NCBI RefSeq assembly: GCF_900103175.1
Contig: NZ_FNLF01000002.1
Span: 3,238,136-3,302,135, forward strand
Direction: 5' to 3'
Source of the DNA: Tsukamurella pulmonis
Lineage (GTDB): Bacteria; Actinomycetota; Actinomycetes; Mycobacteriales; Mycobacteriaceae
Length of the DNA: 64,000 bases
Of the stretch, positions 739-28,885 are shown in pieces (positions within the stretch are counted from its first letter, which is position 1; each line of letters starts with the position of its first letter). A program made the translations under genes and the position numbers. Below the pieces are notes generated by a model that did no database searches, had not been told where the DNA came from, and saw only the letters and a list, made by a program, of their open reading frames with translations.

Positions 739-748
739 ATTATCTATA
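733..748 (+). repeat. left end: att core plus terminal inverted repeat
   Basis: Core ACTCGT (733-738) is followed by A and then TTATCTATA (740-748). The nine bases are an exact inverted match to TATAGATAA at 28872-28880 at the other end. Confidence 0.75.
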
Positions 749-985
749 GCGAATTTCCGGAGCTAGCCCGCCGTAGTGCTCTGACGTGCAATAAGTCGAT
801 GCACGCCTGCGCTTCGACTGAACGAGCGACGTGTGGCACATCACGGAGGTGACTCTAATGAATTTGGCTGCGGGCAGGTGCAGCGGCTCCCCCTGTTGGC
901 CTCGGTGGCTGCTGCCCTTGGTTACGACCGCAATCGCGACCGTTCAACATGTCGAGGTCATGCCGACCACTCACGCGGTGGAGCT

Positions 986-1765
986 GTGACCCGTCGCGAA
1001 GCGATCGGGGCCGCGGCGGCAGTGATGATGATCGCGGGCACCACGGGGTGTTCGATCGCGCCGGGTAGTGGAGAATCAGTTCTGGCCGCTCCTGCGTCTG
1101 GAACGGCAGCAGCGGGCACTGAGGCCGGTGACGGGCGTCGAGGTGCGTTGGCGGCGCTGGAGCAGCTTCCAGTCAAGGGGCGCGCACCGAAGACCGGATA
1201 TGCGCGCAGCCAGTTCGGGATCGCGTGGACCGACGCGAACACAGTTCTGTGGGGCGGGGATTCGTTGAGCACTCGCGAGAACATCCTGTCGCGGGACTTG
1301 ACCGATATCACTTGTAAGCCCCGGTCTGGGAAGACCTCTCCGCCGTGCGTGGTGCAGTCGGGTGTACTGCAGGATCCGTATACCGCCAAGACGCTGAACT
1401 TCGTTCGCGGGGACAAGACTTCGCCGTTGGTTCCCATCGATCACGCGGTGAGTTTGGGGGACGCATTCCAGAAGGGAGCACAACAACTTTCACTGGCCGA
1501 GCGCATCAATCTTGCTAACGACCCGCTGAATCTCGTTGCGACGACGCGTGAGCCAAACTCCGCGAAGAAGGATTCGGACGCAGCTTCGTGGCTGCCGCCC
1601 AACAAGGCGTTCCGATGCAACTACGTGGCGCGACAGGTCGCTGTAAAGGTTCGGTATCGACTCTGGGTGACGCGAGCCGAGAAGGAAGCCATCACCCGGG
1701 TGCTGTCGAGTTGCTCGCGTCAGATGCTGCCGACCGAGGCGGAGGAGGCCTTCAGAGTCGAATAG
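986..1765 (+). CDS. DUF1524/HNH family lipoprotein carried by the element
   Basis: The GTG at 986 is preceded by a GGTGGAG ribosome site and starts a 259-residue protein. Residues 1-21 look like a lipoprotein signal: twin Arg near the start, an Ala-rich core, then TTGC as lipobox. The body has the family layout: FGIAWTD, then STRENILSRDL, then the HNH-like IDHAVSLGDAF and the NLVATTREPNSAKKD segment, ending near WLPPNKAFRCNY. It is a full-length relative of the gene the element has split, but clearly diverged from it and less GC rich. It lies directly inside the left end. It may be cargo, or may replace the lost host protein; neither is shown. Confidence 0.85.
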   Translation: MTRREAIGAAAAVMMIAGTTGCSIAPGSGESVLAAPASGTAAAGTEAGDGRRGALAALEQLPVKGRAPKTGYARSQFGIAWTDANTVLWGGDSLSTRENILSRDLTDITCKPRSGKTSPPCVVQSGVLQDPYTAKTLNFVRGDKTSPLVPIDHAVSLGDAFQKGAQQLSLAERINLANDPLNLVATTREPNSAKKDSDAASWLPPNKAFRCNYVARQVAVKVRYRLWVTRAEKEAITRVLSSCSRQMLPTEAEEAFRVE

Positions 1766-2199
1766 CTCGGGGTGGCCGACCTGTACGCGAAGGTCTTGAG
1801 AACGGAACGCTCGCGGGCAGCCGCGCCTGCTCGTGATGAGCTCGTAGCCGCGCCCGCTGGCGCACTCCTTAGCAGCGTCAGCACCGCCGGTCGGCAGGTC
1901 TTCATCCAAGACCTCGCTGGACGAATGGGGCTTCCAGGGTACATCGCCGCCACCATGAGACTCGCACGTGCGAGTTACGGTCCACCTCAACTGGTTCGCG
2001 GCGGACACTTCGGCTCGTGCTCATCGAAGCGCTCAACCTCGCCGAGCACCAGCTCAACACCCCCTCGAAGACGCCTGGCCTGCGGTTTGAATCGGGGAGA
2101 GGCAGAGTGGTATTCGCACGCGCGGATCGCACGCTGACTCGGCGTGCCAACTGCGCCCCCCTCTCAATCACCGGTTCGGTTACTGGCACGCTCGTGCCA
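1766..2199. other. 434-base stretch without a convincing gene
   Basis: Several overlapping open frames exist on both strands, as expected in GC-rich DNA, but none shows recognisable motifs or a good ribosome site. I see no strong hairpin or repeat here. Confidence 0.5.
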
Positions 2200-2976
2200 A
2201 TGTCTCGCAGAGCAAAACGCAACCGAACATCCCCCCAGGAGCTCCAGCCTGCAGCCCGTGATCACACCTCGCTGATCACGGCATTGCGACAGGTGGAGAT
2301 CGCCGTCGACGACTTCAATCGCGAGGCCGCCCGGATTCACGCCGAGTACGGCATCGCCATCTCCCCGGAGCGGGTCTTCAACACCCCTGAGAACTCCGGC
2401 CTGGAGCAATACATCGAGGTCGCGATCGGCATAGTCGCAGGCAAGCGTCCCGTCGCCGTGTACGGCTCGGATAGCCGGCGCTGGACCGGCGCTCAGTCCC
2501 CACGCCAGGTCCTTGCCCTGCACGAAGCGGCCGGCGACAACACCATCGACTACCTGACGCAAATGGCTCTCAACATCGAGGTGATCAAGGCCAAGCAGGA
2601 CGACCTCGACCGCAGCCTCAAGAAGAGGTGCCTTCGGCCGAATATCAACGGGAAACCTTGCCAGATGCGGCCGCTGTACCAGGCAGGAGTCGGCCACCAG
2701 GACGGGTTCGGATGCTGGCGTCACGCCACCGACAAGGAGAAGCGTGACCTCGAGGAGTCTCGAATCAGCATTGAGTTCAAGACCAGTTGCCCTGGATGCA
2801 AAGCCAGAGCGGGCGAGACGTGCTCAATTCCGACTGAGGGCCACCTCACCCCTGCTCAGGCCGGCCTGAAGATGGTTGACGGAGAGTGGCCGCGGGTGCG
2901 GGTTCTCGGCGGCGCCGACATTCACGTACCGCGGATCGAACTGATCCATCCTCGCGTCCTCGAACCCGCCGAGTAG
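2200..2976 (+). CDS. hypothetical protein with C-terminal Cys-rich (zinc-ribbon-like) region
   Basis: I chose the ATG at 2200, giving 258 residues starting with a basic run (MSRRAKRNR); the open frame extends upstream to 2017 without motif support. The middle is mixed alpha-helical. The C-terminal part holds two Cys/His groups: C-x-RP...GKPC...GCWRH around residues 145-175 and CPGCKARAGETC near residues 190-205. The second resembles the small CPxC-x-AxPGxPC zinc module found in many actinobacterial phage and mobile-element proteins. That suggests nucleic-acid or protein binding. No catalytic family is recognised. It sits in the element's left accessory part beside the DUF1524 gene. Confidence 0.6.
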   Translation: MSRRAKRNRTSPQELQPAARDHTSLITALRQVEIAVDDFNREAARIHAEYGIAISPERVFNTPENSGLEQYIEVAIGIVAGKRPVAVYGSDSRRWTGAQSPRQVLALHEAAGDNTIDYLTQMALNIEVIKAKQDDLDRSLKKRCLRPNINGKPCQMRPLYQAGVGHQDGFGCWRHATDKEKRDLEESRISIEFKTSCPGCKARAGETCSIPTEGHLTPAQAGLKMVDGEWPRVRVLGGADIHVPRIELIHPRVLEPAE

Positions 2977-3218: not shown

Positions 3219-3629
3219 TCAATCAGTGGTACGGGCGTTGCGACGAGCGCGTTCGCCAAGCACCTCATCAATGTCGATCAGCGGGAGGATCAGAGGCTGC
3301 CCTGGGGGTGGCGAGATCCTATGAGTGTGGATTTCACTGTTCATACGTTTGACAATCGCGCGGGCGGCAGCGGCGCTAGGAGCCGCGATCGCCTCGCTCC
3401 GAGCTTCAATGATTCGTCGACGAATATCGTCGGCTAGGTTCGGGTAGCGCAGACCTTCGCGCTCCATCTTCTTGCGCACCCACCAGTTCTCTCCATCTAG
3501 GACCGAGTCCGGCGGAATAGGCTTCCCTGCACCAGTCAAGTTATCGAACTCGCCACGATCCTGGGCTGCTTGAATCTGGGATTCAACCCATGACTCGAAG
3601 GAAACGCTCGCCGGCTTACGCTCTGTCAT
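3219..3629 (-). CDS. DUF1992 (DnaJC28-like) domain protein
   Basis: This 136-residue protein carries the DUF1992 signature near its N-terminus: WVESQIQAAQDRGEFDNL followed by GAGKPI, then an aromatic WWVRKKM segment and RYPNLADDIRRRI. The domain occurs in bacterial proteins of unknown function and in the DnaJC28 J-protein. No J-domain is present here. It is a short cytosolic protein with no membrane segment. It is transcribed in the same direction as the exporter gene upstream (27-base gap, 3629 to 3656), so it may be co-transcribed with it, though a link to polyketide export would be speculative. Its codon use is less GC biased than the host genes. Confidence 0.8.
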   Translation of the reverse strand: MTERKPASVSFESWVESQIQAAQDRGEFDNLTGAGKPIPPDSVLDGENWWVRKKMEREGLRYPNLADDIRRRIIEARSEAIAAPSAAAARAIVKRMNSEIHTHRISPPPGQPLILPLIDIDEVLGERARRNARTTD

Positions 3630-3655
3630 TCTCTCTCCAATCGAACTCGTAGAAG

Positions 3656-5074
3656 CTACCTCTTAGCGTCTCTGCGCGCTGGGAGCGCTAAAGCCACTGC
3701 CGCGGTGATTATCAAGATCGCAGCTATAGCGAGAAACGCACGATTGTATGCGGCAAGGAGCACAGATTTATCACTATCGTCAGCAACCGCAAACGTGACT
3801 AGAACCGCTAGCCCCAGGGCGCCTCCGACTTGCTTCATCGTATTCATCACACCCGAAGCTGCACCGGCTTCGTCAGGCGCAATACCCGAGTTGACCGCCG
3901 CAGTAATCGGAGTATTAAGCAGACCGCTTCCAACACTGAAGAGAATCGCAGGCAGCAGGATTCCCGAAACATAGGTGCTCTCGATCGACAGCTGAGACTG
4001 CCACCAGAAGCCCCCAGCGGCAATCACTGCACCTCCGGCAATCAGAATTCGTCCATCAACTCGTGCCATTAGCCACGGAGTTACTCCAACTCCAATAATA
4101 ATTGCCACAACCGTGTGCGGCAAGAATGCCAGACCAGTTTGCACAGGACTGTAGCCCAATGCGTTCTGCATGGCAAGCGTCAAGAAGTACCACATAGGAT
4201 TAAGGGACGCGCCGGCTAGAAATATCGCTATATTACCTACCGAAACCGAACGACTCTTGAAGATCTTCAGGGGAATCAATGGAGAGTTCGTGAATCGCGC
4301 CTCAACAACAATGAAAGCTATCACTAACAACGCACCGGCCGAGACCGTGAGCACTGTCGATCGCGCTCCCCATCCGCGGTCGGCCGCGAGCGTTATCCCG
4401 TACGCCAGGGTCCCCAAACCGGCAGTTGCCAGCACAGCCCCACCGGCATCCACTCGTGGCCGCTGACGAGTCAGTCTGTCGGCTTCAATGACTCGAACGG
4501 CCAGCAATGCGGCAGCGAGTCCGATCGGCACATTGATCAACAGGATAGATCGCCACGAGAGATACTCGGTGAGAACGCCTCCCACCAAGTTTCCCGCTGT
4601 GCCACCTGCTATGCCTACGGCGGTCCAGGTAGCGAATGCACGCGTCCTGCGAGGGCCTTCTGGGAAAGACGCGGTCAGTATCGTCAGGGTGCTAGGTGCC
4701 AAAATCGCCGCTCCCAGGCCTTGAATCGCCCGAGCAACTACCAGCATCCCGGCCGAGCTAACCAGACCTCCGACAAGACTGGACAGCGAGAAGATAGCAA
4801 GACCCACCAAGAAGGTACGCCGTCGACCGGCGAGGTCGGCGAGCCTGCCGCCTAGAAGTAGAAATCCAGCAAATGTGAGTACGTACGCATTTACAACCCA
4901 CTGCAGATCGCCATCGCCAAAGCCAAGAGAGTCCTTGATCGAGGGGAGCGCGACGTTCACGACCGAGACGTCTAGTACCACCATGAACTGTGCGGCACAG
5001 ACCACCGCCAGCGTGATGCCAGTCGGCGCACGGCCAGAGCGCTCAGGTCCGGTTGCTGCCACACCGTGCTGCAT
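3656..5074 (-). CDS. MFS drug exporter, DHA2 (EmrB/QacA) family, 14 predicted TM segments
   Basis: This 472-residue, strongly hydrophobic protein begins near AAQFMVVLDVSVVNVALP, the motif of TM1 in proton-driven 14-TM drug exporters. It continues with the WVVNAYVLTFAGFLLLGGRLADL region and the RR loop of motif A (LAGRRRTFLVG). Such pumps export antibiotics, so it is the obvious self-resistance and efflux gene of the polyketide cluster. A perfect 6-bp-arm palindrome lies 27 bases upstream of the start, and a related sequence precedes the TetR gene at 9453, which points to TetR control. Length and topology are normal for the family, and no frameshift is seen. Confidence 0.9.
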   Translation of the reverse strand: MQHGVAATGPERSGRAPTGITLAVVCAAQFMVVLDVSVVNVALPSIKDSLGFGDGDLQWVVNAYVLTFAGFLLLGGRLADLAGRRRTFLVGLAIFSLSSLVGGLVSSAGMLVVARAIQGLGAAILAPSTLTILTASFPEGPRRTRAFATWTAVGIAGGTAGNLVGGVLTEYLSWRSILLINVPIGLAAALLAVRVIEADRLTRQRPRVDAGGAVLATAGLGTLAYGITLAADRGWGARSTVLTVSAGALLVIAFIVVEARFTNSPLIPLKIFKSRSVSVGNIAIFLAGASLNPMWYFLTLAMQNALGYSPVQTGLAFLPHTVVAIIIGVGVTPWLMARVDGRILIAGGAVIAAGGFWWQSQLSIESTYVSGILLPAILFSVGSGLLNTPITAAVNSGIAPDEAGAASGVMNTMKQVGGALGLAVLVTFAVADDSDKSVLLAAYNRAFLAIAAILIITAAVALALPARRDAKR

Positions 5075-5458: not shown

Positions 5459-5544
5459 TGGCTATGTCAAGTTGATCTGGCCCCGGTAGGGCGGTTTCAT
5501 TCGGCCCCACCTGAGTGGGGCCCTGAGCCGCTAGAGTCCGGGGT

Positions 5545-5796
5545 GTGGATGGGCGGCCGCGGGTGCGCAGTGTGGTTGCGCCGACTGGTTGGGATCGCGA
5601 GTCGGTGCGTGCGTATGCCGAGTTCGTGATCGCGCGTGATGATCAGCTCGGTGATCAGGTATCGGTCCGGGTGAAGATTAAAGACGGGGAGCCACTGCCG
5701 AACCTGACGACCCGGTGGACCGTGGTTTATGTCACTCACCAGAACCGGGCCTTGCGCCGGCATCTGTCGGTAGTCAAGGACGAACGCCGCGCTTAG
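5545..5796 (+). CDS. small hypothetical protein at the left end of the IS21 element
   Basis: This 83-residue open frame lies inside the IS, convergent with and overlapping the last codons of istB by 4 bases. The sequence is Arg/Val/Asp rich without a domain I can name. It might be a passenger gene, or a chance frame in the IS end. No clear ribosome site is seen. Confidence 0.3.
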   Translation: MDGRPRVRSVVAPTGWDRESVRAYAEFVIARDDQLGDQVSVRVKIKDGEPLPNLTTRWTVVYVTHQNRALRRHLSVVKDERRA

Positions 5797-6620
5797 CCCG
5801 CGGTAGCTGCTGCTTCGGTGTGAGCCAGGCGGTAGCTGTGAGTGCCGGTTTCGATGATGGTGCCGCGGTAGGTGAGCCGGTCGACGATCGCGGCGCAGAG
5901 TCGTGGGTCGGTGAAGGTGTCTGTCCAGCCGGAGAAGGACTGGTTGGAAGCGATCGCGACGCTGTTCTTCTCTTCGCGTTCGGTGAGGACTTGGAAGAGC
6001 AGTTCGGCGCCGCGGCGATCGAGTTCCATGTAGCCGAGCTCGTCGATGATGAGCAGGTCAACGCGGCCGTAGCGGTTGATGGTCTTCGCGAGCTGCTTCT
6101 CGTCAGCGGCCTCGACCAGCTCGTTCACTAGTTTGGTGGCGAGGGTGTAGCGGACTCTAAAGCCTTGCTCGGCGGCAGCGGTTCCCAATCCGATCAGCAG
6201 ATGGGATTTGCCGGTTCCGGAGTCGCCGATGAGGCAGAGCGGCAGTCCGTGGCGGATCCAGTCGCCGGTGGCGAGCTGGTGGATGGTGGCGGGTTCGATG
6301 TCGGGGTTGGCGTCGAAGTCGAAGTCCGCCAGCCACTTCTCCCGCGGGAACCCCGCGGCTTTGACGCGGCGAACAGTGGAGCGGCGGTCCCGGTCGTCGA
6401 CTTCGGCGAGCAGGAGTTCGGCGAGGAACCCCTGGTAGGACAATTGCTGCTTGGCGGCGGCGGTGAGGTGCTGGTCGATCATCGACCGCACTGTCGGCAG
6501 GCGTAGGCGCCGGCAGGCCTGGTCAACGGCGGCGAGGGCGGCTTCTTCGGTGAGGCCGCCCCGGCGGCGCAACGACGGGGCCAGCGCATTCGTCTGGTTC
6601 TTATTGGCGGTTGCGGTCAT
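5793..6620 (-). CDS. istB: IS21-family helper ATPase IstB
   Basis: This 275-residue protein is typical of IstB. An N-terminal helical region (residues 25-100) includes the pattern LSYQGFLAELLLAEVDDR. It is followed by Walker A GDSGTGKSH near residue 130, Walker B LLIIDELGYMEL, and the conserved ASNQSFSGW and DRLTYRG segments. IstB is the AAA+ regulator that remodels target DNA and activates the IstA transposase. Its start overlaps the istA stop by four bases (ATGA type), indicating translational coupling. The gene appears intact. Confidence 0.96.
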   Translation of the reverse strand: MTATANKNQTNALAPSLRRRGGLTEEAALAAVDQACRRLRLPTVRSMIDQHLTAAAKQQLSYQGFLAELLLAEVDDRDRRSTVRRVKAAGFPREKWLADFDFDANPDIEPATIHQLATGDWIRHGLPLCLIGDSGTGKSHLLIGLGTAAAEQGFRVRYTLATKLVNELVEAADEKQLAKTINRYGRVDLLIIDELGYMELDRRGAELLFQVLTEREEKNSVAIASNQSFSGWTDTFTDPRLCAAIVDRLTYRGTIIETGTHSYRLAHTEAAATAG

Positions 6621-8377
6621 AGCCGGGTGGGCCTTTCAATCGGTGGTGGGTCCAGCGACTCAATCGGTGGTGGGTCCAGCGACGCAGGTAGCGCGTCGGA
6701 GGCAGTGCGTCGCCGGTGCTGCGGGAGCAGGCGGTCGTAGGCCGTAACGCTGGGCAGCGGTCGCCGGTCGGGTGGCAGGCCGGCGATCACCGCCGCGGGG
6801 TCTGCGAGCCGTCGTTGGGTGAGGCTGACAACTCGTTGCTCGCGTCGTTCGGCATGGCGATCGAGATGACGGCCAGCGTTGGCCCCACCTGTCTGGTCGG
6901 CAGCGACCGAGGCGTGCGCGAGCAGGCGGGCTTCGGCGCGGCGAGCCTCAACGGCGACGACCTCGGCGCTCACCGCCCCGACCCGCAATGCAGCATCGAT
7001 GCCGGCGATCACCGCCGCGGCGGGCAGGCTGCGGTGCAGCAGCAGGACGTCGATCAGCTCGCTGGTGCCGTCGGTGTCGCCGTTGACTCGTCGGGCGGCG
7101 GCCCAGAACGCATCATGGCTGGCGGTGAACACCCCGGCAGCGCGGGCCTGCGCCAACGCCGTTGATCCCGGCAGGGCACCGGGTTTGAACTTGAGCACCT
7201 CGAGGTAGTGGTCGAGGTCGATCTTCGCGGTGCCGCGGCCGGCGACCCGTGGATGCCGCGCGACCAGGGTCCGGCCGTCGTAGACCAGCAGCTGGGAGGC
7301 TTGTAGTGAGACGCGGACTCGGCGGCCGATCAGGTGCGCCGGCACCGAATACTTCACCATCCGAACGGTGATCATCGCCGACCGATCGACCCGTGGTGTG
7401 AGGATCAGGCCCGGGTCGAAATCCTCCACCGGCAGCGGCGCGAGCGCTGCTCGGTCGTGCTCGTAGTCCTGGCCGATGGTGCGCAGTCGTCCGTCGATCC
7501 GGCGGCCCTCGTCGCGGTCCTCCCAGGCTTTGATCTGCTCGTTGAGCTCATCGAGGGACTCGACCTGCGGCATTGGGGTCAGCCGGTTGCGGCGGAACCA
7601 TCCGACCTCGCCTTCAACGCCGCCCTTCTCGTGCGCCCCGGCGATGCCGGGCTGGCAGTAGAACGGATCGAATCCGTAGTGCGAGTGAAACAACGTCCAC
7701 CGCGGGTTCTCCTGTCGCCGCCGGTCTCCGCCCTGCAGGACCGCGACCACCGCCGAGGTGAGATTGTCGTAGCGGATATGCCGGGTCGGGACCCCGCCGA
7801 GCTCGCGGAACGCCTCGACGTGCCCTTCGAGGAACGCTTCCTGCCCGCCGGTCGGATAGACCCGGTGAATGGCCTTGCCCGAGTGCGAGAGCCGGTAGAC
7901 GAACATGTGGCACTTGGTCTTCACCCCGCCCAGGATCACCCAGACCTCGCCGAAGTCGACCTCCGCCTCCGCGCCCGGGGCGTGGTCCTGGGCGATGAAC
8001 ACCTCCGTCCGGCGGCCGGCCTCCACCTCGATCTGCGCCCGCCGGACCCGCACGTAGTCCCGCACCGTCGAATACGACAACTCGACCGCATCGTGCTCGA
8101 TCGCCAGGCGTTCCCGGATCCGCGTCGCGGTGTGCCGCTGCTTACGCGGAGCATCCAGATCCGACCGCAACATCTCATCAATCGCCGCCTTGAACCGGTC
8201 CAACCGCGGCGACGACCGCTCCGGCGTCTTCCGCGGCGGCGGCTCCGCCGATGACAACGCCTGCCGCACCGTCCTCCGGTGCACGCCATGCTTGCGAGCC
8301 AACGCCCGGATACTCATGCCCTCGACCCGGGCGTCCCGCCGGATCTGCGCGAACAGCTCCACCTTCGATCCCATCAT
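6617..8377 (-). CDS. istA: IS21-family transposase IstA
   Basis: This 586-residue protein has an N-terminal helix-turn-helix (residues 15-45, MSIRALARKHGVHRRTVRQAL) and a DDE catalytic core: Asp in EAEVDFGE, Asp in RYDNL, Glu in HEKGGVEGEVG. A Mu-transposase-like beta-barrel region and an extended C-terminal tail follow. It cuts and joins the IS ends together with IstB. The C-terminus contains an exact repeat of SLDPPPIE encoded by a 24-bp tandem duplication (6636-6683). No stop or frameshift interrupts it, so the element may still be active. Confidence 0.95.
   Translation of the reverse strand: MMGSKVELFAQIRRDARVEGMSIRALARKHGVHRRTVRQALSSAEPPPRKTPERSSPRLDRFKAAIDEMLRSDLDAPRKQRHTATRIRERLAIEHDAVELSYSTVRDYVRVRRAQIEVEAGRRTEVFIAQDHAPGAEAEVDFGEVWVILGGVKTKCHMFVYRLSHSGKAIHRVYPTGGQEAFLEGHVEAFRELGGVPTRHIRYDNLTSAVVAVLQGGDRRRQENPRWTLFHSHYGFDPFYCQPGIAGAHEKGGVEGEVGWFRRNRLTPMPQVESLDELNEQIKAWEDRDEGRRIDGRLRTIGQDYEHDRAALAPLPVEDFDPGLILTPRVDRSAMITVRMVKYSVPAHLIGRRVRVSLQASQLLVYDGRTLVARHPRVAGRGTAKIDLDHYLEVLKFKPGALPGSTALAQARAAGVFTASHDAFWAAARRVNGDTDGTSELIDVLLLHRSLPAAAVIAGIDAALRVGAVSAEVVAVEARRAEARLLAHASVAADQTGGANAGRHLDRHAERREQRVVSLTQRRLADPAAVIAGLPPDRRPLPSVTAYDRLLPQHRRRTASDALPASLDPPPIESLDPPPIERPTRL
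6636..6683. repeat. 24-bp tandem duplication at the 3' end of istA
   Basis: Two exact 24-base units lie back to back (6636-6659, 6660-6683), adding eight residues to the IstA tail without shifting the frame. Confidence 0.85.
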
Positions 8378-8523
8378 TGGCCACCACCTGCTTCGGCTCG
8401 GAAACGATGTTCACGAGCAACCATCAGGTGGGGCCAGATCAAACCGTCGCAACACCACCGGCGAGTCGCAAACGGGGCCAGGTCTAGCCGTCGAGCCGGG
8501 GCCTCTTCAAGCTGTCATAGCCA

Positions 8524-8529
8524 CGCGGT
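8524..8529. repeat. target site duplication of the IS21-family element, right copy
   Basis: CGCGGT, identical to 5453-5458. Confidence 0.85.
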
Positions 8530-9186
8530 CATCAACTGGTAGTAGAACGACTCGCGCAGAGGATATTTGGCACACAACTCATACAACTCGATAACTACTT
8601 CGCTGTAGCGCTCCAATTCCATCTGCGCCTCGGTGAGGAGCTCGCACGTCGACACGATCTCTTCCTCCAGTCTGGCAACACTGCCGCGGAGAATTTGTCC
8701 GTGTTTTACCCCTGCAAGGGGCGCACCGCGGATCATCCGCAACGCATGGCGCCCAGTCGACAACGCATCTTCTGCGGAACAGTGCAGCAACGACCTGGCT
8801 TTAGCGACGAGCTCACGGAAACGCAATACGTCGATGTCGAGAGCGTGCTGGTCGAGCGAGTAGCCCGGCGGTTCTGTCCTCACAATGGCAGCCGCATCAC
8901 ATCGGTAATCCAACGCCTCCAGCGCTTGACGCAGCTGGTATACGTACGTTTGCATGGTTGTTGTTGCACTGCGGGGCGGGCTTTCGGGCCACAGTTCTGC
9001 GATGAGTGTTTCCTGCATCACCAACGCACCTGGGCGCAGCGCCAATACTGCGAGCACCTGCTGAACCTTCGGAGACAACGATGCTTCGGTGCCACTCCAA
9101 CCCAACTTCACTGGCCCAAGCAGTCGTACAGCCAACCCGGTAGGCTCCGTCGCAGTTAATCCACCTTCAATGACCTTCACGTGCAT
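8524..9186 (-). pseudogene. SARP family pathway activator, 5' part (interrupted)
   Basis: The ATG at 9186 is preceded by a strong GGGAGG site. The fragment encodes an OmpR-type winged-helix DNA-binding domain (about residues 15-100: VRLLGPVKLGW, LSPKVQQVLAVLALRPG, LIAELWPESPPRSA...TYVYQLRQAL). The first two thirds of the BTAD domain follow, ending at LRESFYYQLMTA, where the IS21 element starts. In the sequenced state translation ends two codons later (WL, then stop). SARPs activate antibiotic clusters by binding 11-bp-spaced heptamer repeats near -35; two such arrays occur in this cluster (10124-10152, 22736-22764). Without its BTAD end the protein is probably inactive, although SARP DNA-binding domains can sometimes act alone. 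Confidence 0.9.
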
Positions 9187-9408
9187 GTACCTCCCGGTAC
9201 GCTTCCACTTTAGGACGAACACTTTGGCGATGGAGGCTGGTCAACATGACAGGTACGTGCGTCGCGCACCTCACCACCTCCAGGTTAGGGAAATGCGGTT
9301 TGCGCCATGCAGGACGCAACTGCATGCCCGGAAACGACTCGATTGCGCAGCGTTACCCCCCGGAAAGCAGCCGCCACGTCTGCCGGTAGCGGTTGTACGC
9401 TTGTACCC

Positions 9409-9423: not shown

Positions 9424-9452
9424 CACAAACCTGAACGATGCAGGAGCAAACA

Positions 9453-10100
9453 GTGCCGCGCACGCCTGACCACACTGTGCGCCGCACGCAGATCGCGGAC
9501 GCACTGGTCCGAACCGCGACTCGAAACGGCCTGCACGCAGTCACGATGCGGTCGGTAGCAGCTGAGGCCGGCGTCTCGCTAAGGCTCGTGCAGTACTACT
9601 TCGTCAACAAGGAACAGCTGCTGGCCGGTGCCCTCCTGCATCTTGAGCGCTGCAGTCACGAACGTTGGGCTCAGCGGCTGGCCGACATCCCGCAACCGCT
9701 GCCAGCACGTGCGGTGATTGAAGCGTTCGTTTCCGAGGCTCTTCCCACGGACGAATCGAGCCGGGCATTTCACCAACTGAGTATGTCCTACGCAGTCCTT
9801 GCAATGACGAACCCTCAGATCGCGGAACAACCGTTCATCAGTGGCGTGAGCCGCATCGAGAGCGAGCTCAGCAGCTTGTTCGAGCGCGCAGTCGATACGA
9901 ACGAGATCGCAGCTGGTCGCGATGCTCACACCGAGGCCGTCAGACTGGCGGCACTGGTCAATGGGCTCGGGACTGGCATTCTTGTCGGCCAATACACAGA
10001 CGAAGATGCTGCTCAGGTAGTCGCGTATCACCTCGATCGACTCTTCGATCAGGTTCCTACACGTCTCCCGCCGCCGGCCGAACTCGGCCGTCACGGCTGA
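9453..10100 (+). CDS. TetR/AcrR family transcriptional regulator
   Basis: This protein of about 215 residues has a classic TetR N-terminal DNA-binding domain: QIADALVRTATRNGLHAVTMRSVAAEAGVSLRLVQYYFVNKEQLL. The ligand-binding helical domain follows. I prefer the GTG at 9453 because AGGAG lies 6 bases upstream; an in-frame ATG at 9438 is possible but lacks a good site. It is divergent from the SARP gene and sits upstream of the aryl-acid ligase gene. The shared operator-like sequences suggest it represses itself and the exporter gene, with a pathway product or intermediate as the likely inducer (inference). Confidence 0.9.
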   Translation: MPRTPDHTVRRTQIADALVRTATRNGLHAVTMRSVAAEAGVSLRLVQYYFVNKEQLLAGALLHLERCSHERWAQRLADIPQPLPARAVIEAFVSEALPTDESSRAFHQLSMSYAVLAMTNPQIAEQPFISGVSRIESELSSLFERAVDTNEIAAGRDAHTEAVRLAALVNGLGTGILVGQYTDEDAAQVVAYHLDRLFDQVPTRLPPPAELGRHG

Positions 10101-20295: not shown

Positions 20296-20403
20296 GGCGC
20301 CAACAATAGCAATACTGCCGTATACGCCACTTCTCACATGCCCTTGCTCGTCATACGCTGAACTCGCTTCACCAAGAAACCTCGACACCTAGGAGAACCC
20401 CTC

Positions 20404-20715
20404 ATGTCCACACCCGCATCACTTCCGTATGCCTTCGTCGCCAAGATCGTCGCGGCCGATGGACAGCACGACGCGCTCGCCGATCTGCTCGCCGGCGCTG
20501 TCGCGCTCGCCAACGAAGAAGTAGGAACGATTGTCTGGTTCGCGGTCAGGACCCACGCCGACACCTTCTGGATCTTCGATGCATTCCCCGACGAGGCCGC
20601 TCGCGACGCCCACGCCAACGGCGCCATCGTCGCAGCCCTGATGGCCAACCAGCACCTCCTCGGCGCAGCACCCGAGATCCTGGCGGCCGACGTCCTCGCG
20701 TCCAAGCTTCCGTAG
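20404..20715 (+). CDS. putative quinol monooxygenase / ABM-domain protein
   Basis: This 103-residue protein has the antibiotic-biosynthesis-monooxygenase (dimeric ferredoxin-like) pattern: YAFVAKIVAADGQHDALADLL, EEVGTIVWFAVRTHADTFWIFDAFPDEAARDAHANG and LLGAAPEILAADVL. A GGAG ribosome site precedes the ATG. It is divergent from the GlxA-AraC gene, its likely regulator. Members act on quinols or as stress-related monooxygenases; the substrate here is unknown. It lies in the composite insertion, so it is probably a passenger, although the name invites linking it to the polyketide. Confidence 0.8.
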   Translation: MSTPASLPYAFVAKIVAADGQHDALADLLAGAVALANEEVGTIVWFAVRTHADTFWIFDAFPDEAARDAHANGAIVAALMANQHLLGAAPEILAADVLASKLP

Positions 20716-21233
20716 TCCGCCAACGCACGAGACGATCGCGCCCCGCCGAGCCGTCGCCAGGTCGCGACGCAGCGCCACGCTGCGTTGCCGAGCGGTGCGA
20801 GGCCTATCGGCACACGGACAGGATGTCCGAGCGTTCATCCGGCGAGGGGTCCGTCGCAGAGGAGAGCGACGTCGGGTGTCGGGCAGAGCCGTGAGGCCAG
20901 CGCATCGCGCGACCATCAGAACCGAACCGCCCCTGCCCTACGTTTCCGCAGGTCAGGGGCTGTTCGCCGGAGCCGCCTGTCGGAATCGAACCGACGACCT
21001 AATCACGTCGGCTTTGCGTCTATCGCCTGATGCGCCCACTGGGCGAACGAGCCGCTGACCTGCGCGAACGCCGAGCGTGGGGGACGCCGCCATCCGGTGG
21101 TGACCGACGACGACCGACTAGTACCGACCGTTTCACCGGAGCTTGCGGCGGCGTCGAAGCCGAGCAAGCTCCATTCTTTTAGCTCACCGCGCCCTCCTCC
21201 TCGCCGGTCCCGTCTTCGTCGAAGACGTTTCAG
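20716..21233. other. 518-base non-coding stretch with a tRNA-Thr 3' fragment
   Basis: No convincing gene is seen. 20969-21000 (minus strand) matches the T-arm and acceptor 3' side of an actinobacterial tRNA-Thr (T-loop GGTTCGATTCC, acceptor side AGGCGGCT). The rest looks like scrambled intergenic DNA running up to the IS left end. Confidence 0.55.
20969..21000 (-). repeat. tRNA-Thr 3'-end fragment (possible old att site)
   Basis: The minus strand shows a T-stem/loop GTCGG-TTCGATT-CCGAC followed by AGGCGGCTCC. The 5' half of a tRNA is absent, so this is not a functional tRNA. Fragments like this are left by elements that integrate into tRNA genes. Confidence 0.5.
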
Positions 21234-22672
21234 GGGTCTTCTCAGATGCCGGTGTAGGTCGGCCGGGCGCGTCGGTCCGCAGATAGACGTCGAGGTCTCC
21301 CGACGACGGAGGTTCCTACGCCATCCATCCGAAAGACCTCGACGTGACCGACACAACCCCGCCGGCCGGCTTCGGCCGCCCTGACCTCACCGCCTTCGCT
21401 CGACTCGACGGCCTCGGTCTGAGCGTGACCGGACAACGACTTGAACCGGATCGTGCGGTCCTAGCGTGCCGCGTGGTGGAACCAGATCAGTGGTGCCGAC
21501 GGTGCGGCAGCGAAGGCGCTGCTCGTGACACCGTGATCCGGCGGTTGGCCCACGAGCCGCTGGGCTGGCGACCGACCGTGCTGGAAGTTGTAGTGCGCCG
21601 CTACCGCTGTGCCGACTGCGGACACGTGTGGCGCCAAGACACCAGCGCCGCTGCGGAGCCACGCGCGAAGCTCTCGCGCACCGGGCTGCGGTGGGCGCTG
21701 GAAGGGATCGTGGTCGCACACCTCACCGTCGCCCGTGTCGCCGAGGGACTCGGGGTCGCGTGGGACACCGCCAACAACGCGGTCCTGGCTGAAGGCAAGC
21801 GGCTGCTGATCAACGACCCCACGCGGTTCGAGGGCGTGAAGGTCATTGGCGTCGATGAGCACGTCTGGCGCCACACCAGGCGTGGCGACAAGTATGTCAC
21901 CGTGATCATCGACCTCACCCCGGTCCGCGATGGCGCCGGCCCAGCAAGGCTGCTGGACATGGTCGAGGGCCGGTCGAAGGCGGCGTTCAAGACCTGGCTC
22001 GCCGACCGCGACGACGCCTTCCGTGACGCGGTCGAGGTGGTCGCGATGGACGGCTTCACCGGGTTCAAGACCGCCGCTGCGGAGGAGATCCCGGACGCGG
22101 TCACGGTGATGGATCCCTTCCACGTCGTGCGCCTGGCCGGTGACGCCCTCGACAGGTGCCGGCGCCGGGTCCAACTCGCGATCCACGGGCACCGTGGGTT
22201 CAGGGACGACCCGCTCTACAAGTCGCGGCGCACGCTGCACACCGGCGCGGACCTGCTCACCGACAAGCAGAGCGACAGGCTACGCGCGCTGTTCGTTGAT
22301 GACGCTCACGTCGAGGTCGAGGCGACCTGGGGTGTCTACCAGCGCATGATCGCCGCCTATCGCCACGAGGACCGGCAACGTGGCCGCGAGCTCATGGAGA
22401 AGCTGATCACCGACCTCAGCGCCGGCGTCCCCAAGGTGCTCACCGAGCTCACCACCCTGAGCCGGACCCTGAAGAAGCGAGCCGCTGACGTGCTCGCCTA
22501 CTTCGAACGACCCGGCACCAGCAACGGGCCGACCGAGGCGCTCAACGGACGGCTCGAACACCTGCGCGGCTCCGCACTCGGGTTCCGCAACCTGACCAAC
22601 TACATCGCCCGAAGCCTGCTCGAGACCGGCGGCTTCAGACCCCAACTCCTACACCCCCGATTGGGATGAGCC
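21234..22672 (+). mobile_element. complete ISL3-family insertion sequence
   Basis: The IS is 1439 bp. The left end GGGTCTTCTCAGATGCCGG matches the remnant end at 18960 with few differences; the right end is the inverted GGCTCATCCCAATCGGGGG. It encodes one transposase (21344-22669). No duplication flanks this copy by itself, consistent with movement as part of the larger composite. Confidence 0.88.
21344..22669 (+). CDS. tnpA: ISL3-family transposase
   Basis: This 441-residue protein has an N-terminal zinc-ribbon (CRRCG, then YRCADCGHVWRQD at residues 45-95) and a helix-turn-helix (VARVAEGLGVAWDTANNAV). The DDE domain of the ISL3/IS1096 group follows: Asp in VIGVDEHVWR, Asp in VVAMDGFTGFKTA, and the C-terminal Glu region SNGPTEALNGRLEHLRGSALGFRNLTNYIAR. 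It catalyses movement of this IS. Its stop codon lies only 3 bases before the IS end. The ATG follows the sequence duplicated in the remnant at 18974-19125. The gene appears complete. Confidence 0.95.
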   Translation: MTDTTPPAGFGRPDLTAFARLDGLGLSVTGQRLEPDRAVLACRVVEPDQWCRRCGSEGAARDTVIRRLAHEPLGWRPTVLEVVVRRYRCADCGHVWRQDTSAAAEPRAKLSRTGLRWALEGIVVAHLTVARVAEGLGVAWDTANNAVLAEGKRLLINDPTRFEGVKVIGVDEHVWRHTRRGDKYVTVIIDLTPVRDGAGPARLLDMVEGRSKAAFKTWLADRDDAFRDAVEVVAMDGFTGFKTAAAEEIPDAVTVMDPFHVVRLAGDALDRCRRRVQLAIHGHRGFRDDPLYKSRRTLHTGADLLTDKQSDRLRALFVDDAHVEVEATWGVYQRMIAAYRHEDRQRGRELMEKLITDLSAGVPKVLTELTTLSRTLKKRAADVLAYFERPGTSNGPTEALNGRLEHLRGSALGFRNLTNYIARSLLETGGFRPQLLHPRLG

Positions 22673-22764: not shown

Positions 22765-22811
22765 TCATTCACTATTGGACCTCGATTCAGCCTGGACGGG
22801 AGGTGACCAAC

Positions 22812-22862
22812 GTGAACGCGCAAGCAATCATCGTAGGTCGGGAGGAACTGTGGGGGCGCTAG
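22812..22862 (+). CDS. possible 16-residue leader peptide before the ketoreductase
   Basis: GTG at 22812 follows a strong GGGAGGTG site and opens a 16-codon frame (VNAQAIIVGREELWGR) that ends at TAG 22860-22862, overlapping the ketoreductase start at 22850. It may couple translation of the downstream gene, or the strong site may be a chance feature. Confidence 0.3.
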   Translation: MNAQAIIVGREELWGR

Positions 22863-23611
22863 CTCTGGTTACAGGTGGAACAAGTGGCATCGGGTATTCT
22901 TGCGCCCAGCAGCTTCGCGATGCTGGATTCCGGGTCGTCGTCACTGGGCGTAGGCAGGACAAGCTCGATCGGGTCGTTGACGGGATGCCTGGTATCGGCG
23001 GGTACGTCAACGACGTTCGTGACCGAGCAGCGGTACAGACCCTGGTCTCCGCGGTCGTCGCTGAGCACGGACCCATCGACATTCTGGTCAACAACGCTGG
23101 ACGCGGCGGCGGCGGCCCCATCGCCACGATTACCGACGACTTGTGGCTCGATGTAATCGAGACTGACCTGAACAGCGTATTCTGGGTAACTCGCGCGGTT
23201 CTAATTGCATCACCAAGCATCCGTAGGTCCACAGGACGTATTATCAATATTGCCTCGACAGGCGGTAAACAAGGCGTCCCTTTTGGAACCCCTTATTCGG
23301 CCGCGAAGGCCGGAGTCATTGGCTTCACGAAGGCGCTTGCCAAAGAAGTTGCCCCCACCGGCCTCACCGTCAATGCCGTGTGTCCCGGATACGTCGAAAC
23401 TCCAATGGCGGTAGAGATTCGCGAGTCGTATGCCCAGATGCGTGGCGTCTCGGAGGAGAAAATCATGCAAGAGTTCGAGTCGAAGATTCCCCTCGGACGA
23501 TATAGTTCTCCAGAAGAAGTCGCGTCAATGGTCACTTATCTCGCAAGTCCGTCTGCGGCCTCGGTGACCGCACAAGCGTTAAACGTATGCGGCGGACTCG
23601 GAATCTACTAA
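22850..23611 (+). CDS. type II PKS ketoreductase (SDR), EncD/ActKR-like
   Basis: The GTG at 22850, preceded by GGGAGG, starts a 253-residue SDR. NADPH motif TGGTSGIG is at residues 8-15. NNAGRGGGGP carries the extra Gly run of aromatic C9 ketoreductases. The catalytic set is Ser136 (INIASTGGKQGVPFG), Tyr149 and Lys153 (YSAAK). VNAVCPGYVETPMA and the terminal ALNVCGGLG follow. It reduces one ketone of the nascent poly-beta-ketone. A frame upstream to 22775 lacks support. It is divergent from the KS-alpha gene and heads a plus-strand operon with the methyltransferase and SnoaL-like genes. Confidence 0.93.
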   Translation: MGALALVTGGTSGIGYSCAQQLRDAGFRVVVTGRRQDKLDRVVDGMPGIGGYVNDVRDRAAVQTLVSAVVAEHGPIDILVNNAGRGGGGPIATITDDLWLDVIETDLNSVFWVTRAVLIASPSIRRSTGRIINIASTGGKQGVPFGTPYSAAKAGVIGFTKALAKEVAPTGLTVNAVCPGYVETPMAVEIRESYAQMRGVSEEKIMQEFESKIPLGRYSSPEEVASMVTYLASPSAASVTAQALNVCGGLGIY

Positions 23612-23636: not shown

Positions 23637-24302
23637 ATGAGCGCCATGGAAGCCAACGATCACGGTCAAGCCTTCTATCGAACCAAACGCTTAAATGGCT
23701 ACGATCTTGTGACGGTGCAAGCGGCGAATCACCTCCTGTGGAGGTGTGCCCCGAGCCGGCTGATCGATTTATACAATTCGCACGTCACCGACCGCCACCT
23801 TGATATCGGTCCAGGTTCGGGCTACTATCTCGACCACTGCACCTTTCCGTCGATGAATCCAGAACTCACACTCGTTGACCTTAATCCGGATCCTTTAACA
23901 TTCGTTCAACAGCGTCTTGCCCGCTACTCCCCGTCAGTCGCACGAGCGGATCTACTCGATAGTTTGGAAGACGTTCCAAACGCACCGTTCGACTCGATCG
24001 GCCTCAACTACGTACTGCACTGCCTTCCACAGACACCGGGAGGCCGGGCAGATGTATTTGCCAATATCAAGCCTTTGCTGAAGCCCCAGGGAGTGCTTTT
24101 TGGTAGCACAGTCGTAACTGGCGGCGCATCAGCAACACCGCTATCGCGCGCATTCAACGCCTTGTACCAGAAGATGGGCGCATTCCATAACGAACTCGAC
24201 ACCGTCGATTCGTTACATTCGGCACTTGACGAACATTTCACTAGCCACGTGCTTGAGGTACGCGGCAGCGTGACAATATTCAGCGCGCGAGGCCCGCGAT
24301 GA
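23637..24302 (+). CDS. SAM-dependent methyltransferase, EncK-like
   Basis: This 221-residue class I methyltransferase has the SAM motif HLDIGPGSGYYLD near residues 53-65, an acidic strand end LTLVDLNPDPL, and the FDSIGLNYVLHCLP motif IV region. In the enterocin pathway EncK is the O-methyltransferase acting on the pyrone oxygen; the same role is plausible here. It starts 25 bases after the ketoreductase stop and overlaps the next gene by four bases, so it belongs to the same operon. An internal ATG at 23646 is an alternative start. Confidence 0.85.
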   Translation: MSAMEANDHGQAFYRTKRLNGYDLVTVQAANHLLWRCAPSRLIDLYNSHVTDRHLDIGPGSGYYLDHCTFPSMNPELTLVDLNPDPLTFVQQRLARYSPSVARADLLDSLEDVPNAPFDSIGLNYVLHCLPQTPGGRADVFANIKPLLKPQGVLFGSTVVTGGASATPLSRAFNALYQKMGAFHNELDTVDSLHSALDEHFTSHVLEVRGSVTIFSARGPR

Positions 24303-24751
24303 CCTCAATCTCTGCGCAGGTTCACACAGATGTCGCCCAGCTGTACAGCCGTCATATGCGGGCTATGGATGAAGGTCGCGTCACTGATTGGACCGCCGAC
24401 TTTACTGATTCCGCGACCTTCACGACGAACGCACGTCCGGATACTCAGGAAGGGCGGTGCAACATCGCCACCGAGGCTCGCGACGCCGCGAATAAACTAC
24501 GGGACTCTGGCGACCGTCGACGACATTGCTTGACGAACCTGGAACTGTGCTACGTAGATGGCGACACCACCAGACTACGGGCTGATAGCTATGCTGTAGT
24601 AGTCCGTACACCCCAAGGTGGACCGTCGGCTGTAGAATTCTTGTGCACGTGCACGGACTACCTGGTATTCGAAGCGGGCCGCTGGTCGATAGAACGGCGT
24701 GTTGTTCAACGTGACGACTTGCCGCGGCTTCCCACAGAAGGCGCCATATAG
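24299..24751 (+). CDS. SnoaL-like / NTF2-fold protein
   Basis: This 150-residue protein has the NTF2/ring-hydroxylating-dioxygenase-beta fold pattern: helical start VAQLYSRHMRAMDEGRVTDW, then FTDSATFTT, then strands ending DYLVFEAGRWSIERRVVQRDD. The family includes polyketide cyclases (SnoaL) and small hydroxylase-like proteins. It is translationally coupled (ATGA overlap) to the methyltransferase. No homologue of this role is assigned in the well-known enterocin steps that I recall, so the function is open. It is the last gene of the plus-strand biosynthetic operon. Confidence 0.75.
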   Translation: MTSISAQVHTDVAQLYSRHMRAMDEGRVTDWTADFTDSATFTTNARPDTQEGRCNIATEARDAANKLRDSGDRRRHCLTNLELCYVDGDTTRLRADSYAVVVRTPQGGPSAVEFLCTCTDYLVFEAGRWSIERRVVQRDDLPRLPTEGAI

Positions 24752-24908: not shown

Positions 24909-25490
24909 TTAATTTGGGACCTTTCTTATCATTTGACGCAGAGCAAGTTGCGCACCGTCTCGGTCGGCGATCGCAACGTCACGTTCGCGCTTGACGATGG
25001 CGATTTCTGCGGTGGCGGCGTGCAGTTCTTTCCGAAGACGGGTGTTCTCGTCTTCAATGCGGCAAAGTTCCTTGGCAAGGTCTTGTGCGCTTGTTGCATC
25101 GAGCTGGTCCCCGAGGTTTCGCTGCACACGACGGCGAAGGCGATCACGTTCGCCACGCAGATCACGGATTTCACCTCTCGCATTCGCCAGTTCAGTGCGT
25201 AGACCTTGAGCGGTGCGATCATCGACCGTGTCGTTCGAGCCGCCGTCCTTGTCAAGATTTTGGTTGGATTGCGATTGAATGGCTGTTTCGATTGCCAGCC
25301 GTACAGTGGGGTTATTGTAGACAAACCAGGTTGATACACGCGCGGCGCGGTGGACGCTCGTGAAGCTTACTTGTTCGCCGTGGGTCACCATTTCGTCGAT
25401 TTTGTCCAACGTGGCGGTCTGTTTTCCCGCCGCGGCGGCACGGCGTGCTGCGACTAAGTGTTGCGTTCGTGCGTCAGACGATGTCTTCAT
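24909..25490 (-). CDS. tnpC: DUF6262-like coiled-coil protein, TnpC of the Tn554-like element
   Basis: This 193-residue protein has an N-terminal helical/HTH-like region (KIDEMVTHGEQVSFTSVHRAARVSTWFVYNNPTVRLAI), then a long charged coiled coil from about residue 100 to 185 (RTELANARGEIRDLRGERDRLRRRV and so on). Proteins of this type always sit beside paired tyrosine recombinases in Tn554-like elements, where TnpC modulates orientation and efficiency of transposition. Its start overlaps the tnpB stop by 17 bases. The assignment rests on gene context and architecture. Confidence 0.8.
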   Translation of the reverse strand: MKTSSDARTQHLVAARRAAAAGKQTATLDKIDEMVTHGEQVSFTSVHRAARVSTWFVYNNPTVRLAIETAIQSQSNQNLDKDGGSNDTVDDRTAQGLRTELANARGEIRDLRGERDRLRRRVQRNLGDQLDATSAQDLAKELCRIEDENTRLRKELHAATAEIAIVKRERDVAIADRDGAQLALRQMIRKVPN

Positions 25491-27636: not shown

Positions 27637-28763
27637 CGCGCCCCCTGCTGGCGCGCCGCATGGACGGCCGCGACCGCCGCACGGGTCCGTGCATCGCTGG
27701 CGTGAATATAGATACTGGTCGACTCCGAGGTCGCATGTCCGAGAAGGTTCTGAACAACGTCGATCTCACTGCCAGCAGCGATCCACTCCGTTGCCGCCGA
27801 GTGCCGAAACATGTGTGGCGTCGCCCTGAACCCACATTTGCGTCCAAGCCCACTGACTATCTGGTAGGCGTTCGAGTACGTCATCGGCCCGCCTGCCTCA
27901 GCTCCTCGATAGTTGACGAACAGAAACCTGCCCTGTCGATCTCCCAACAAGGTAAACCGTTCATGCTGGTAGTCGCGGTAGTCGCTGACGAAGCTGTCCG
28001 CGACCGGCACGTGGCGAGGGGTCTTCGACTTCGCGATCGCGTAGTTCCGATTATCGGTTCGCCGTCTGACGTGGAAGTGCGGTCCAGACACGGCACATCC
28101 GAGCGCACGAGAGTTGGGCAAGAGGTGAATGTCCTCACTGAGGAGTCCTAGGGTTTCACCGATGCGAGGGCCACCTTCGTGCAGAACACGCAGCAAGAAC
28201 CGATCCCGGGCAGTCTTCGCGTACTCACGCATCGCCAGCACCTGCTCGTCGCTGAAAACTTCCGGCGGTCGCTCAGCGACCTTGACCCGCAGCGCGTTAA
28301 TCCGCGTCCGGTGGAACTGCCCTCCCTCTCCGCGCCCCAGGGCGCGACTCTGCTGGATCCAGCGTTTCTCGACGAGTCGGTCAGCGATAGCGGCGTCGAT
28401 GTGACCGTTTGCTGCGCAAAAGCGGAGGAACTCTGTGACCGCCGTCAACATCACACTCACTGTTCGGGGAGCCCGCGGCCTCCCTGTCCTCGCGCTCGGA
28501 ACGACCTGAAGGTGCCGCTTAAACCGAACCAGATCAAGCACGTTGACACTCTGCCATCGCACCCCATCGGCCGCCGCCCACGTCAGGAACGCTGCGACCG
28601 CCAACATGTAGGTACGGATCGTGTTCGGCGACTTCTCAGCCCCCTCCATCGAGACAGCAAATCGCATCGCCTCCGGATGCGGATCGAACTGCTCGTCGTC
28701 CACCACCAACCACGTCGACCATCCCGCCCGGTGCCGTGCCTGCTCAACCTTCCACCGCATCAC
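27633..28763 (-). CDS. tnpA: tyrosine recombinase TnpA of the Tn554-like element
   Basis: This 376-residue integrase has an N-terminal SAM-like core-binding domain (NTIRTYMLAVAAFLTWAAADG, about residues 50-70) and the catalytic domain: Arg in EGGPRIGETLGLL (about 201), HMFRHSAATEW (about 320) and the nucleophile Tyr in HATSESTSIYIHAS (about 352). The GTG at 28763 and the ATG at 28760 both follow a very strong GGAGGGAGGGGGG site. It is the first gene of the transposition operon, reading inward from the right end 109 bases away. Confidence 0.92.
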   Translation of the reverse strand: MMRWKVEQARHRAGWSTWLVVDDEQFDPHPEAMRFAVSMEGAEKSPNTIRTYMLAVAAFLTWAAADGVRWQSVNVLDLVRFKRHLQVVPSARTGRPRAPRTVSVMLTAVTEFLRFCAANGHIDAAIADRLVEKRWIQQSRALGRGEGGQFHRTRINALRVKVAERPPEVFSDEQVLAMREYAKTARDRFLLRVLHEGGPRIGETLGLLSEDIHLLPNSRALGCAVSGPHFHVRRRTDNRNYAIAKSKTPRHVPVADSFVSDYRDYQHERFTLLGDRQGRFLFVNYRGAEAGGPMTYSNAYQIVSGLGRKCGFRATPHMFRHSAATEWIAAGSEIDVVQNLLGHATSESTSIYIHASDARTRAAVAAVHAARQQGAR

Positions 28764-28871
28764 CCCCCTCCCTCCGCCTACCGCCCGCCGTCACTCGCTA
28801 CTAAAAGATAGATGTGAGCCACAATAGCAGCTAACCCTCGTAACACACGTCCCTCACCTGCAGAGTGTGGG
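28764..28871. promoter_or_regulatory. right terminal region of the element with the transposition promoter
   Basis: This is a short AT-richer stretch between the tnpA start and the right inverted repeat. It must contain the tnpA promoter and the recombinase-binding sites; GATAGAT and TATAGATAA are similar subterminal words. Confidence 0.45.
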
Positions 28872-28885
28872 TATAGATAACCCGC
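28872..28885 (+). repeat. right end: terminal inverted repeat plus att core
   Basis: TATAGATAA (28872-28880) is the inverted partner of 740-748. The core ACCCGC (28880-28885) differs from the left core ACTCGT at two synonymous positions, as expected if one core came from a previous integration site. Confidence 0.75.

Follow-up and report, generated by a model that had tools for sequence, protein, structure and literature searches.

The stretch of Tsukamurella pulmonis DNA analysed here (the window; 64,000 nucleotides of contig NZ_FNLF01000002.1) comes from a genome of 4.78 Mb in two contigs and contains a 28,141-bp insert, at positions 740-28880, inside a host gene of the GmrSD_C/DUF1524 family, with the break point at 738/28880. 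Just inside its right end, the insert has two tyrosine-recombinase genes, tnpA and tnpB, and a gene for a TnpC-like protein (together, the trio), and just inside its left end, it carries a GmrSD_C gene of its own. The space between tnpC and the carried gene holds an enterocin-type type II polyketide synthase (PKS) gene set (Table 1). The GC content of the insert is 0.614, against 0.761 in the left flank (733 bp) and 0.717 in the right flank. For the first 20 kb of the 61-kb contig of this genome, the best match among plasmids is to T. tyrosinosolvens (83.5% over 35%).

The host GmrSD_C gene was found in 16/16 genomes searched within the genus, and the site is empty in all 15 of the others, where both flanks align across it without a gap. 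An open frame through the empty site was displayed in 12 of these congeners, the remaining three (L057, L059, and L060) showing DNA continuity only. These results bear out the original prediction, made from the letters of the window, that 28.1 kb of foreign DNA lies between the halves of one gene, and supply the uninterrupted DUF1524 locus that it had proposed to look for in relatives. The native target sequence is ACCCGC in 13 congeners, ACACGC in L060, and ACGCGC in L061, and the two 6-bp core copies at the window insertion are unequal, ACTCGT on the left versus ACCCGC on the right. The insert is bounded by 9-bp terminal inverted repeats, TTATCTATA and TATAGATAA; the ends had been predicted at 739 and 28879, which coincide with the element ends but are shifted by one base. 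The transposon Tn554, compared below, is not known to have terminal inverted repeats.

Both recombinases match PF00589, their genes overlap by 4 bp, and the active-site residues R, H-x-x-R, H, and Y are readable in each. The third protein matches DUF6262, and its gene has the same direction as tnpA and tnpB and an equal position in annotated plasmid relatives, in agreement with the predicted overlapping recombinase pair and TnpC-like gene. No close relative of TnpA was found among the 16 genus genomes, the next matches being at 33-34%, and TnpB has one match in the host genome (1e-40). At the same threshold, TnpB matches occurred in 8/397 genomes of the order and 5/396 of the phylum (each count includes the host genome), as well as in 17/246 genomes of a Streptomyces-like genus (g87) at 1e-60 and in 102 of 72,556 plasmid records at 1e-5. 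Plasmid pRHL3 of Rhodococcus jostii RHA1 (NC_008271) matches TnpB at 31% over 84%, and the Listeria plasmid matches, among those listed, at only 24% over 31%.

Tyrosine recombinases acting at a single conserved site would also suit an integrative conjugative element or a phage island. This alternative is highly improbable, because no conjugation or phage gene was found among the scanned proteins of 739-28880, and two recombinases joined by DUF6262 in a trio are arranged as in Tn554, according to the available parts of PMC3414803.

The protein encoded by the carried GmrSD_C gene has, by reading, a lipoprotein-like N-terminus; GGDSLSTREN replaces NGCDTRND in it, and the IDH...ANDP.NL residues are retained. 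Among 40 GmrSD_C proteins compared, its nearest relative, at 69%, is the copy carried by a second type of Rhodococcus element.

Table 1. Features of the insert and its borders in the window
Feature	Position	Strand	Basis or remark
Host GmrSD_C/DUF1524 gene, 5' half	442..738	+	Translation and alignment to 15 congeners; start approximate; ends ...NGCDTR
6-bp core, left copy ACTCGT	733..738	+	Unlike commonest native ACCCGC
Left terminal inverted repeat TTATCTATA	740..748	+	9 bp
Element-borne GmrSD_C gene	833..1765	+	PF07510, E 5.7e-16
Gene without Pfam match	2017..2976	+	80% DNA match in same genome, C2:297 kb (L105)
DJC28-domain protein	3219..3629	-	Domain match
MFS exporter of cluster	3656..5074	-	68% to MFS of G1157 cluster
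IS21-family insertion sequence (IS)	5472..8442, ends approximate	-	istB 5793-6620, istA 6617-8377; Pfam; inverted ends TTGATCTGGCCC/GGGCCAGATCAA
SARP/BTAD regulator	8515..9222	-	C-terminus lost beside IS21; compared with longer G1157 homolog
TetR regulator	9438..10100	+	64% to G1157
Benzoate-CoA ligase family	10175..11707	+	TIGR02262, 380 bits (cut-off 375)
DUF4440 protein	11664..12047	-	Domain match
Aromatic amino acid lyase family	12028..13635	-	73% to Salinispora
EncM-like FAD/BBE flavoprotein	13823..15226	-	72% to Salinispora, 74% to G1157
Acyltransferase (AT)	15223..16320	-	Profile match
Acyl carrier protein (ACP)	16260..16505	-	PF00550
KS-beta/CLF	16539..17738	-	Comparison with KS-alpha loci
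KS-alpha, cut near codon 11 by ISL3-type insertion	17735..18959	-	78% to Salinispora mooreana
ISL3-family insertion, 3,713 bp	18960..22672	.	8-bp duplication CCAAAACC at 18952-18959 and 22673-22680
AraC-type gene in ISL3 insertion	19354..20388	-	
Open reading frame in ISL3 insertion	20419..20916	-	
Transposase of ISL3 insertion	21344..22669	+	
Ketoreductase-type SDR	22775..23611	+	Comparison and Pfam
Methyltransferase	23637..24302	+	Comparison and Pfam
SnoaL-like protein	24299..24751	+	Pfam
TnpC	24909..25490	-	DUF6262, PF19776
TnpB, long tyrosine recombinase, 720 aa	25474..27636	-	PF00589
TnpA, short tyrosine recombinase, 376 aa	27633..28763	-	PF00589
Right terminal inverted repeat TATAGATAA	28872..28880	+	9 bp
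6-bp core, right copy ACCCGC	28880..28885	+	Same as 13/15 congeners
Host GmrSD_C gene, 3' half	28883..29320	+	PF07510; begins RNDVL...

For the cargo, one locus holds the genes for KS-alpha, KS-beta, ACP, AT, the EncM-type flavoprotein, the lyase, and the benzoate-CoA ligase. The core, SnoaL-methyltransferase-ketoreductase on one side and KS-alpha-KS-beta-ACP-AT-EncM-lyase-DUF4440-ligase on the other, is colinear at 55-79% identity with clusters of Salinispora mooreana (L066) and of a genome of the same family as the host (G1157), as expected from the predicted aromatic type II PKS set. We take the ligase, the flavoprotein, and the acyltransferase to be EncN-like, EncM-like, and EncL-like, respectively, and the lyase to be in an EncP-like position. 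Among the NCBIfam models, the lyase best matches a phenylalanine aminomutase, above the cut-off of that model, and cinnamate would therefore be only its presumptive product.

The places of the MFS, TetR, and SARP genes vary among the three clusters, MFS and TetR being placed otherwise in G1157 than in the window. In addition, a P450 gene lies between the EncM and lyase genes in both L066 and G1157 (the Salinispora P450 matches that of G1157 at 72%), whereas no match to the Salinispora P450 was found in the window at 1e-3. The missing P450 would presumably perform the last oxidation, so that a deoxy product would be expected even from the set without damage. The minimal PKS is not intact, as KS-alpha is split by the ISL3-type insertion with its 8-bp duplication. 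This 3.7-kb insertion brings an AraC-type regulator as a passenger. Judged from its genes, the cargo is thus an enterocin-type type II PKS set that is damaged in three respects: KS-alpha is split, the SARP regulator is shortened, and the P450 is absent. The P450 loss, the IS in KS-alpha, the shortening of the SARP gene with its adjacent IS21, and the carried GmrSD_C gene were all outside the original prediction.

Taken together, the insert is probably a site-specific 28.14-kb transposon of the Tn554-related actinobacterial class, carrying both a homolog of its target and a PKS cargo. The prediction that the trio brought the whole cluster stands in part: a Tn554-related transposon encloses the enterocin-type set, and its end motifs match those of seven other GmrSD_C-targeting loci, but carriage of a working whole cluster is not supported.

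In these eight GmrSD_C-targeting loci, all of which have TTATCT/AGATAA ends, the GmrSD_C genes are broken at the same Thr-Arg codons. The split motif reads ...GCDTR/RND or, in some loci, GCGTR/RDD, SCDTR/RDD, and similar. Compared with the 28,141 bp of the window, the other elements measure 5,080 bp (L096), 5,082 bp (L097), 7,961 bp (L139, with IS genes inside), 5,080 bp (L140), 6,214 bp (L152), 6,351 bp (L153), and 6,205 bp (L154). Because L097 and L139 have one interrupted gene in common, the eight loci represent approximately seven distinct insertions. An internal GmrSD_C gene is present in all eight, and on the Rhodococcus plasmids the plan is compact, tnpA-tnpB-tnpC being followed by a reversed GmrSD_C gene. 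The two core copies differ in four loci (window, L096, L097, and L140) and are identical in L139, L152, L153, and L154. In 18/29 further loci, TTATCT is also present in the 700 bp upstream of TnpA, where ~0.04 occurrences per 700 bp are expected from the motif density in the 45 trio loci, and it was not found within that distance in six distant relatives (L099-L104).

A second Tn554-like type was seen in Rhodococcus plasmids (L096, 13519-18575; L097, 13600-18581; L139, 3982-9038). Here the same GmrSD_C gene is broken at its QIDHV motif, and the element brings a GmrSD_C copy of its own, which in DN22 and VT6 has IEH, not IDH.

The pairing of a broken target with a carried relative extends to other gene families. 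In L148 and L174, a serine recombinase gene is broken at one and the same codon and a full serine recombinase is carried; in L098, an HNH endonuclease gene is broken and an HNH gene is carried. Across the 45 trio loci (1e-6), no locus other than L148 and L174 has a serine-recombinase match, and none other than L098 an HNH match. GmrSD_C matches occur in 9/45, namely the eight GmrSD_C-targeting loci and L161, in which the match is partial, at 0.4-0.5 kb, and ~6 kb away from the trio. Open frames were the only criterion of completeness, and by it the carried genes are apparently complete in the 11 loci whose target halves were placed. In a GmrSD_C protein tree of 36/40 rows (the four dropped lacked the IDH motif, and three of these were element copies), the element label changes at least three times, which points to repeated capture.

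These results suggest, tentatively, that in several Tn554-related actinobacterial lineages a homolog of the interrupted gene, be it an extracytoplasmic GmrSD_C nuclease, a serine recombinase, or an HNH endonuclease, was captured independently and serves to replace the lost function. In some lineages, the carried site would have drifted so that the copy resists new insertions, and the low cost of the site would make room in one of the elements for 20 kb of polyketide cargo. For the window itself, whether the carried GmrSD_C gene offsets the function of the broken host gene is evenly balanced. Concerning resistance, SLSTRE is present in the window copy and its nearest Rhodococcus copy where targets have GCDTRN, and the target motif is retained in the Rhodococcus inner copies and the Streptomyces-like copies; because these other copies retain it, a resistant carried copy is possible in one group only.

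Alternatively, the homologs could be neutral passengers captured by chance, when excision is imprecise or insertions are nested at tandem GmrSD_C genes. GmrSD_C genes are indeed common (137/397 genomes of the order, E 1e-45), and nested elements occur in one GmrSD_C gene on the Rhodococcus plasmids. However, the tree indicates at least three captures, the target and carried families match in all 11 loci with placed halves, and the carried genes there have apparently remained complete, making chance capture unlikely.

Several observations weigh against the overall reading of a site-specific transposon that carries a replacement for its target gene. End motifs on both sides were found in 22 loci, of which 11 have placed target halves and a carried homolog, and the 11 others, whose far end is a motif match only, show no such pair. 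Carriage is therefore not a rule of the whole family, and the 11/22 ratio is itself biased upward because the first 11 loci were found via the homolog pair. As a universal rule, target-homolog carriage was rejected on the basis of these pair-less loci. The raw count of flanking homolog pairs is also weak evidence, since 17/45 trio loci is not far above the 7/29 of control PKS loci (30 loci, one of which, under 15 kb, was dropped); the claim of carriage rests on the junctions, not on raw pair counts. Moreover, the carried copy is only ~44% identical to the host 3' half, and the tree was obtained with long-branch warnings and without three outer-element copies. Unequal cores are not general, given that four of the eight pairs are identical. 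The 28-kb element is known from a single copy, and its present-day mobility is presumptive, neither excision, a circular form, nor transposition having been observed.

Finally, each of the three types of carried gene seems to encode a DNA-active protein, as would also be expected of a part in transposition. They could thus be working parts of the process, as a nuclease or recombinase helper, the kinship with the target being a by-product of, for example, post-insertion capture. In line with this, all three types are nuclease or recombinase families, and their far-end place, pointing back to the trio, is constant whatever the direction of the target gene. Conversely, the carried family switches along with the target family, the pair is missing in some relatives that share the end motif, and the lipoprotein-like leaders of the GmrSD_C copies (by reading) suggest action outside the cytoplasm. 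A role as a transposition part is thus quite unlikely.

Among the pair-less loci, the two flanks are readable as halves of one gene in L146, L150, L160, and L171. By peptide reading, not family search, the targets are ligase-like in L150, MazG-like in L163 and L164, SRAP-like in L171, and phosphotransferase-like in L160. L163 and L164 are two ~6.29-kb trio elements at one NPRKG(V/T)SH site of the MazG-like gene, with no carried homolog.

In a further group on Streptomyces plasmids and contigs (L137, L144, L145, L159, and L170), the trio of every locus lies between helicase-related pieces. A full-length gene lies on the far side in the first four, and the TTATCTA end adjoins the helicase fragment in L137, L144, and L145, with only a variant, ATATCTC, in L159 and none in L170. 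The far end was looked for and not found in this group, which was therefore left out of the carriage count. L137, L144, L145, and L170 are Streptomyces linear-plasmid trio elements close to defence-type genes (NACHT, ABC three-component, SAVED/ThiF). In L147 (10340-18366), the trio of a Streptomyces plasmid lies beside a LanM lanthipeptide synthetase gene, another possible link to a biosynthetic cluster.

With the site-specific transposon as the preferred reading, TnpA and TnpB, aided by TnpC, would recombine the TTATCTATA ends with Thr-Arg codons (ACN CGN) within the conserved NGCDTRND motif of GmrSD_C/DUF1524 genes, a target in which the protein is conserved and the wobble positions are free. 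The 6-bp cores would not need to match, and wobble variation in the target would therefore be tolerated; one junction may retain the core of an earlier site. Insertion would break the host gene while an apparently complete GmrSD_C gene comes along at the far end. The carried gene may stand in for the broken one, and the cost of insertion would therefore be low. The space between tnpC and the carried gene would serve as a cargo slot, in which the enterocin-type set was later damaged by two IS insertions.

The original prediction further suggested that such a transposon could explain the scattered distribution of enterocin-type clusters, which our comparisons do not support. No match to TnpA, TnpB, TnpC, or the element GmrSD_C was found at 1e-5 in 30 KS-alpha loci with flanks of up to 10 kb, a set taken from a single-protein genome scan of close relatives only, the flank being shorter than 10 kb on some contigs. 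EncM was found at E 1e-120 in 2/301 genomes of the family, the host and G1157; on plasmids, 148 records match it at 1e-60, the best (55%) from Pseudonocardia. The G1157 cluster (G1157:C1:1756000-1795800; L177, L178), a second enterocin-type cluster in the family, has the P450 and a longer SARP gene, and no trio or GmrSD_C match was found within the 39.8 kb around it. Within the stretch read, the L066 cluster likewise lies outside any trio element. Conversely, none of the 44 other trio loci matches KS-alpha, KS-beta, EncM, the lyase, or AT at 1e-10. The trio as a vehicle that spreads enterocin clusters was rejected, there being no second case in these three sets. Thus, of what the prediction had taken as decisive, the ends do coincide with those of the element, but the recombinase and PKS genes are joined only in this window, in a single known capture.

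The lack of another trio-PKS pair, together with the ~5-8 kb of the compact relatives, would also be expected if the PKS cluster had been inserted later into a small resident element instead of travelling with the trio. We consider this doubtful, although not far-fetched, because no separate boundary between trio and cluster was noticed, the cluster occupies the slot between tnpC and the element's own GmrSD_C copy, and the match to the empty site is only at the outer ends. The trio and its cargo may have moved as one unit.

Overall, the ends and the exact target codons are now defined for a class of actinobacterial transposons that was described in 2012 from its recombinases, and one member of the class is shown to hold a gene set for type II polyketide synthesis. 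A simple, testable strategy also emerges, in which a gene is broken and a relative of the same gene is brought along. If confirmed, this rule would make it easier to find where such elements end and what they target in genomes of Rhodococcus and Streptomyces, and would point out the slots in which biosynthetic and defence genes are held as cargo.

In the available parts of PMC3414803 (Van Houdt et al., 2012), actinobacterial Tn554-related transposons are described as having two tyrosine recombinases, one long and one short, frequently accompanied by a TnpC-like protein, and pRHL3 of R. jostii RHA1 appears in a table of Tn554-like actinobacterial elements. The window likewise has adjacent short and long tyrosine-recombinase genes and a TnpC-like gene in the same direction, whereas its target gene, cargo cluster, and carried target homolog have no counterpart in those parts of the paper. 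Tn554, Tn558, and Tn6188 of Firmicutes share the tnpABC order, one conserved radC coding motif, and 6-bp junctions, and Tn6188 (5,117 bp) has a resistance gene and no flanking inverted repeats (PMC3788773, available parts). The window element resembles them in gene order, single conserved coding motif, and 6-bp junctions, but differs from strict Tn554 in targeting GmrSD_C, not radC, and from Tn554 and Tn6188 in its 9-bp inverted repeat, carried target homolog, and PKS cargo. A literature search, with most subscription papers outside its reach, found no paper joining Tn554 with 'biosynthetic gene cluster' and no account of a carried target homolog or a polyketide cargo in a Tn554-like element. 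The insert is a real element of the Tn554-related actinobacterial class, and these two features are absent from the class descriptions compared, as far as the available parts of those sources go.

By analogy, the nearest precedent found for a carried target homolog is the recA mobile element (RME) of Vibrio cholerae S24, which, in the available parts of PMC4405046, is a 32.8-kb island in recA with a complete divergent recA at one end and 9-bp inverted repeats, and the excision of which restored recA. RME differs in its integrase system and target and is one described island, not a multi-target trio family, whereas the splitting of a conserved gene, the divergent complete copy at one end, and the 9-bp inverted repeats are common to RME and the window element.

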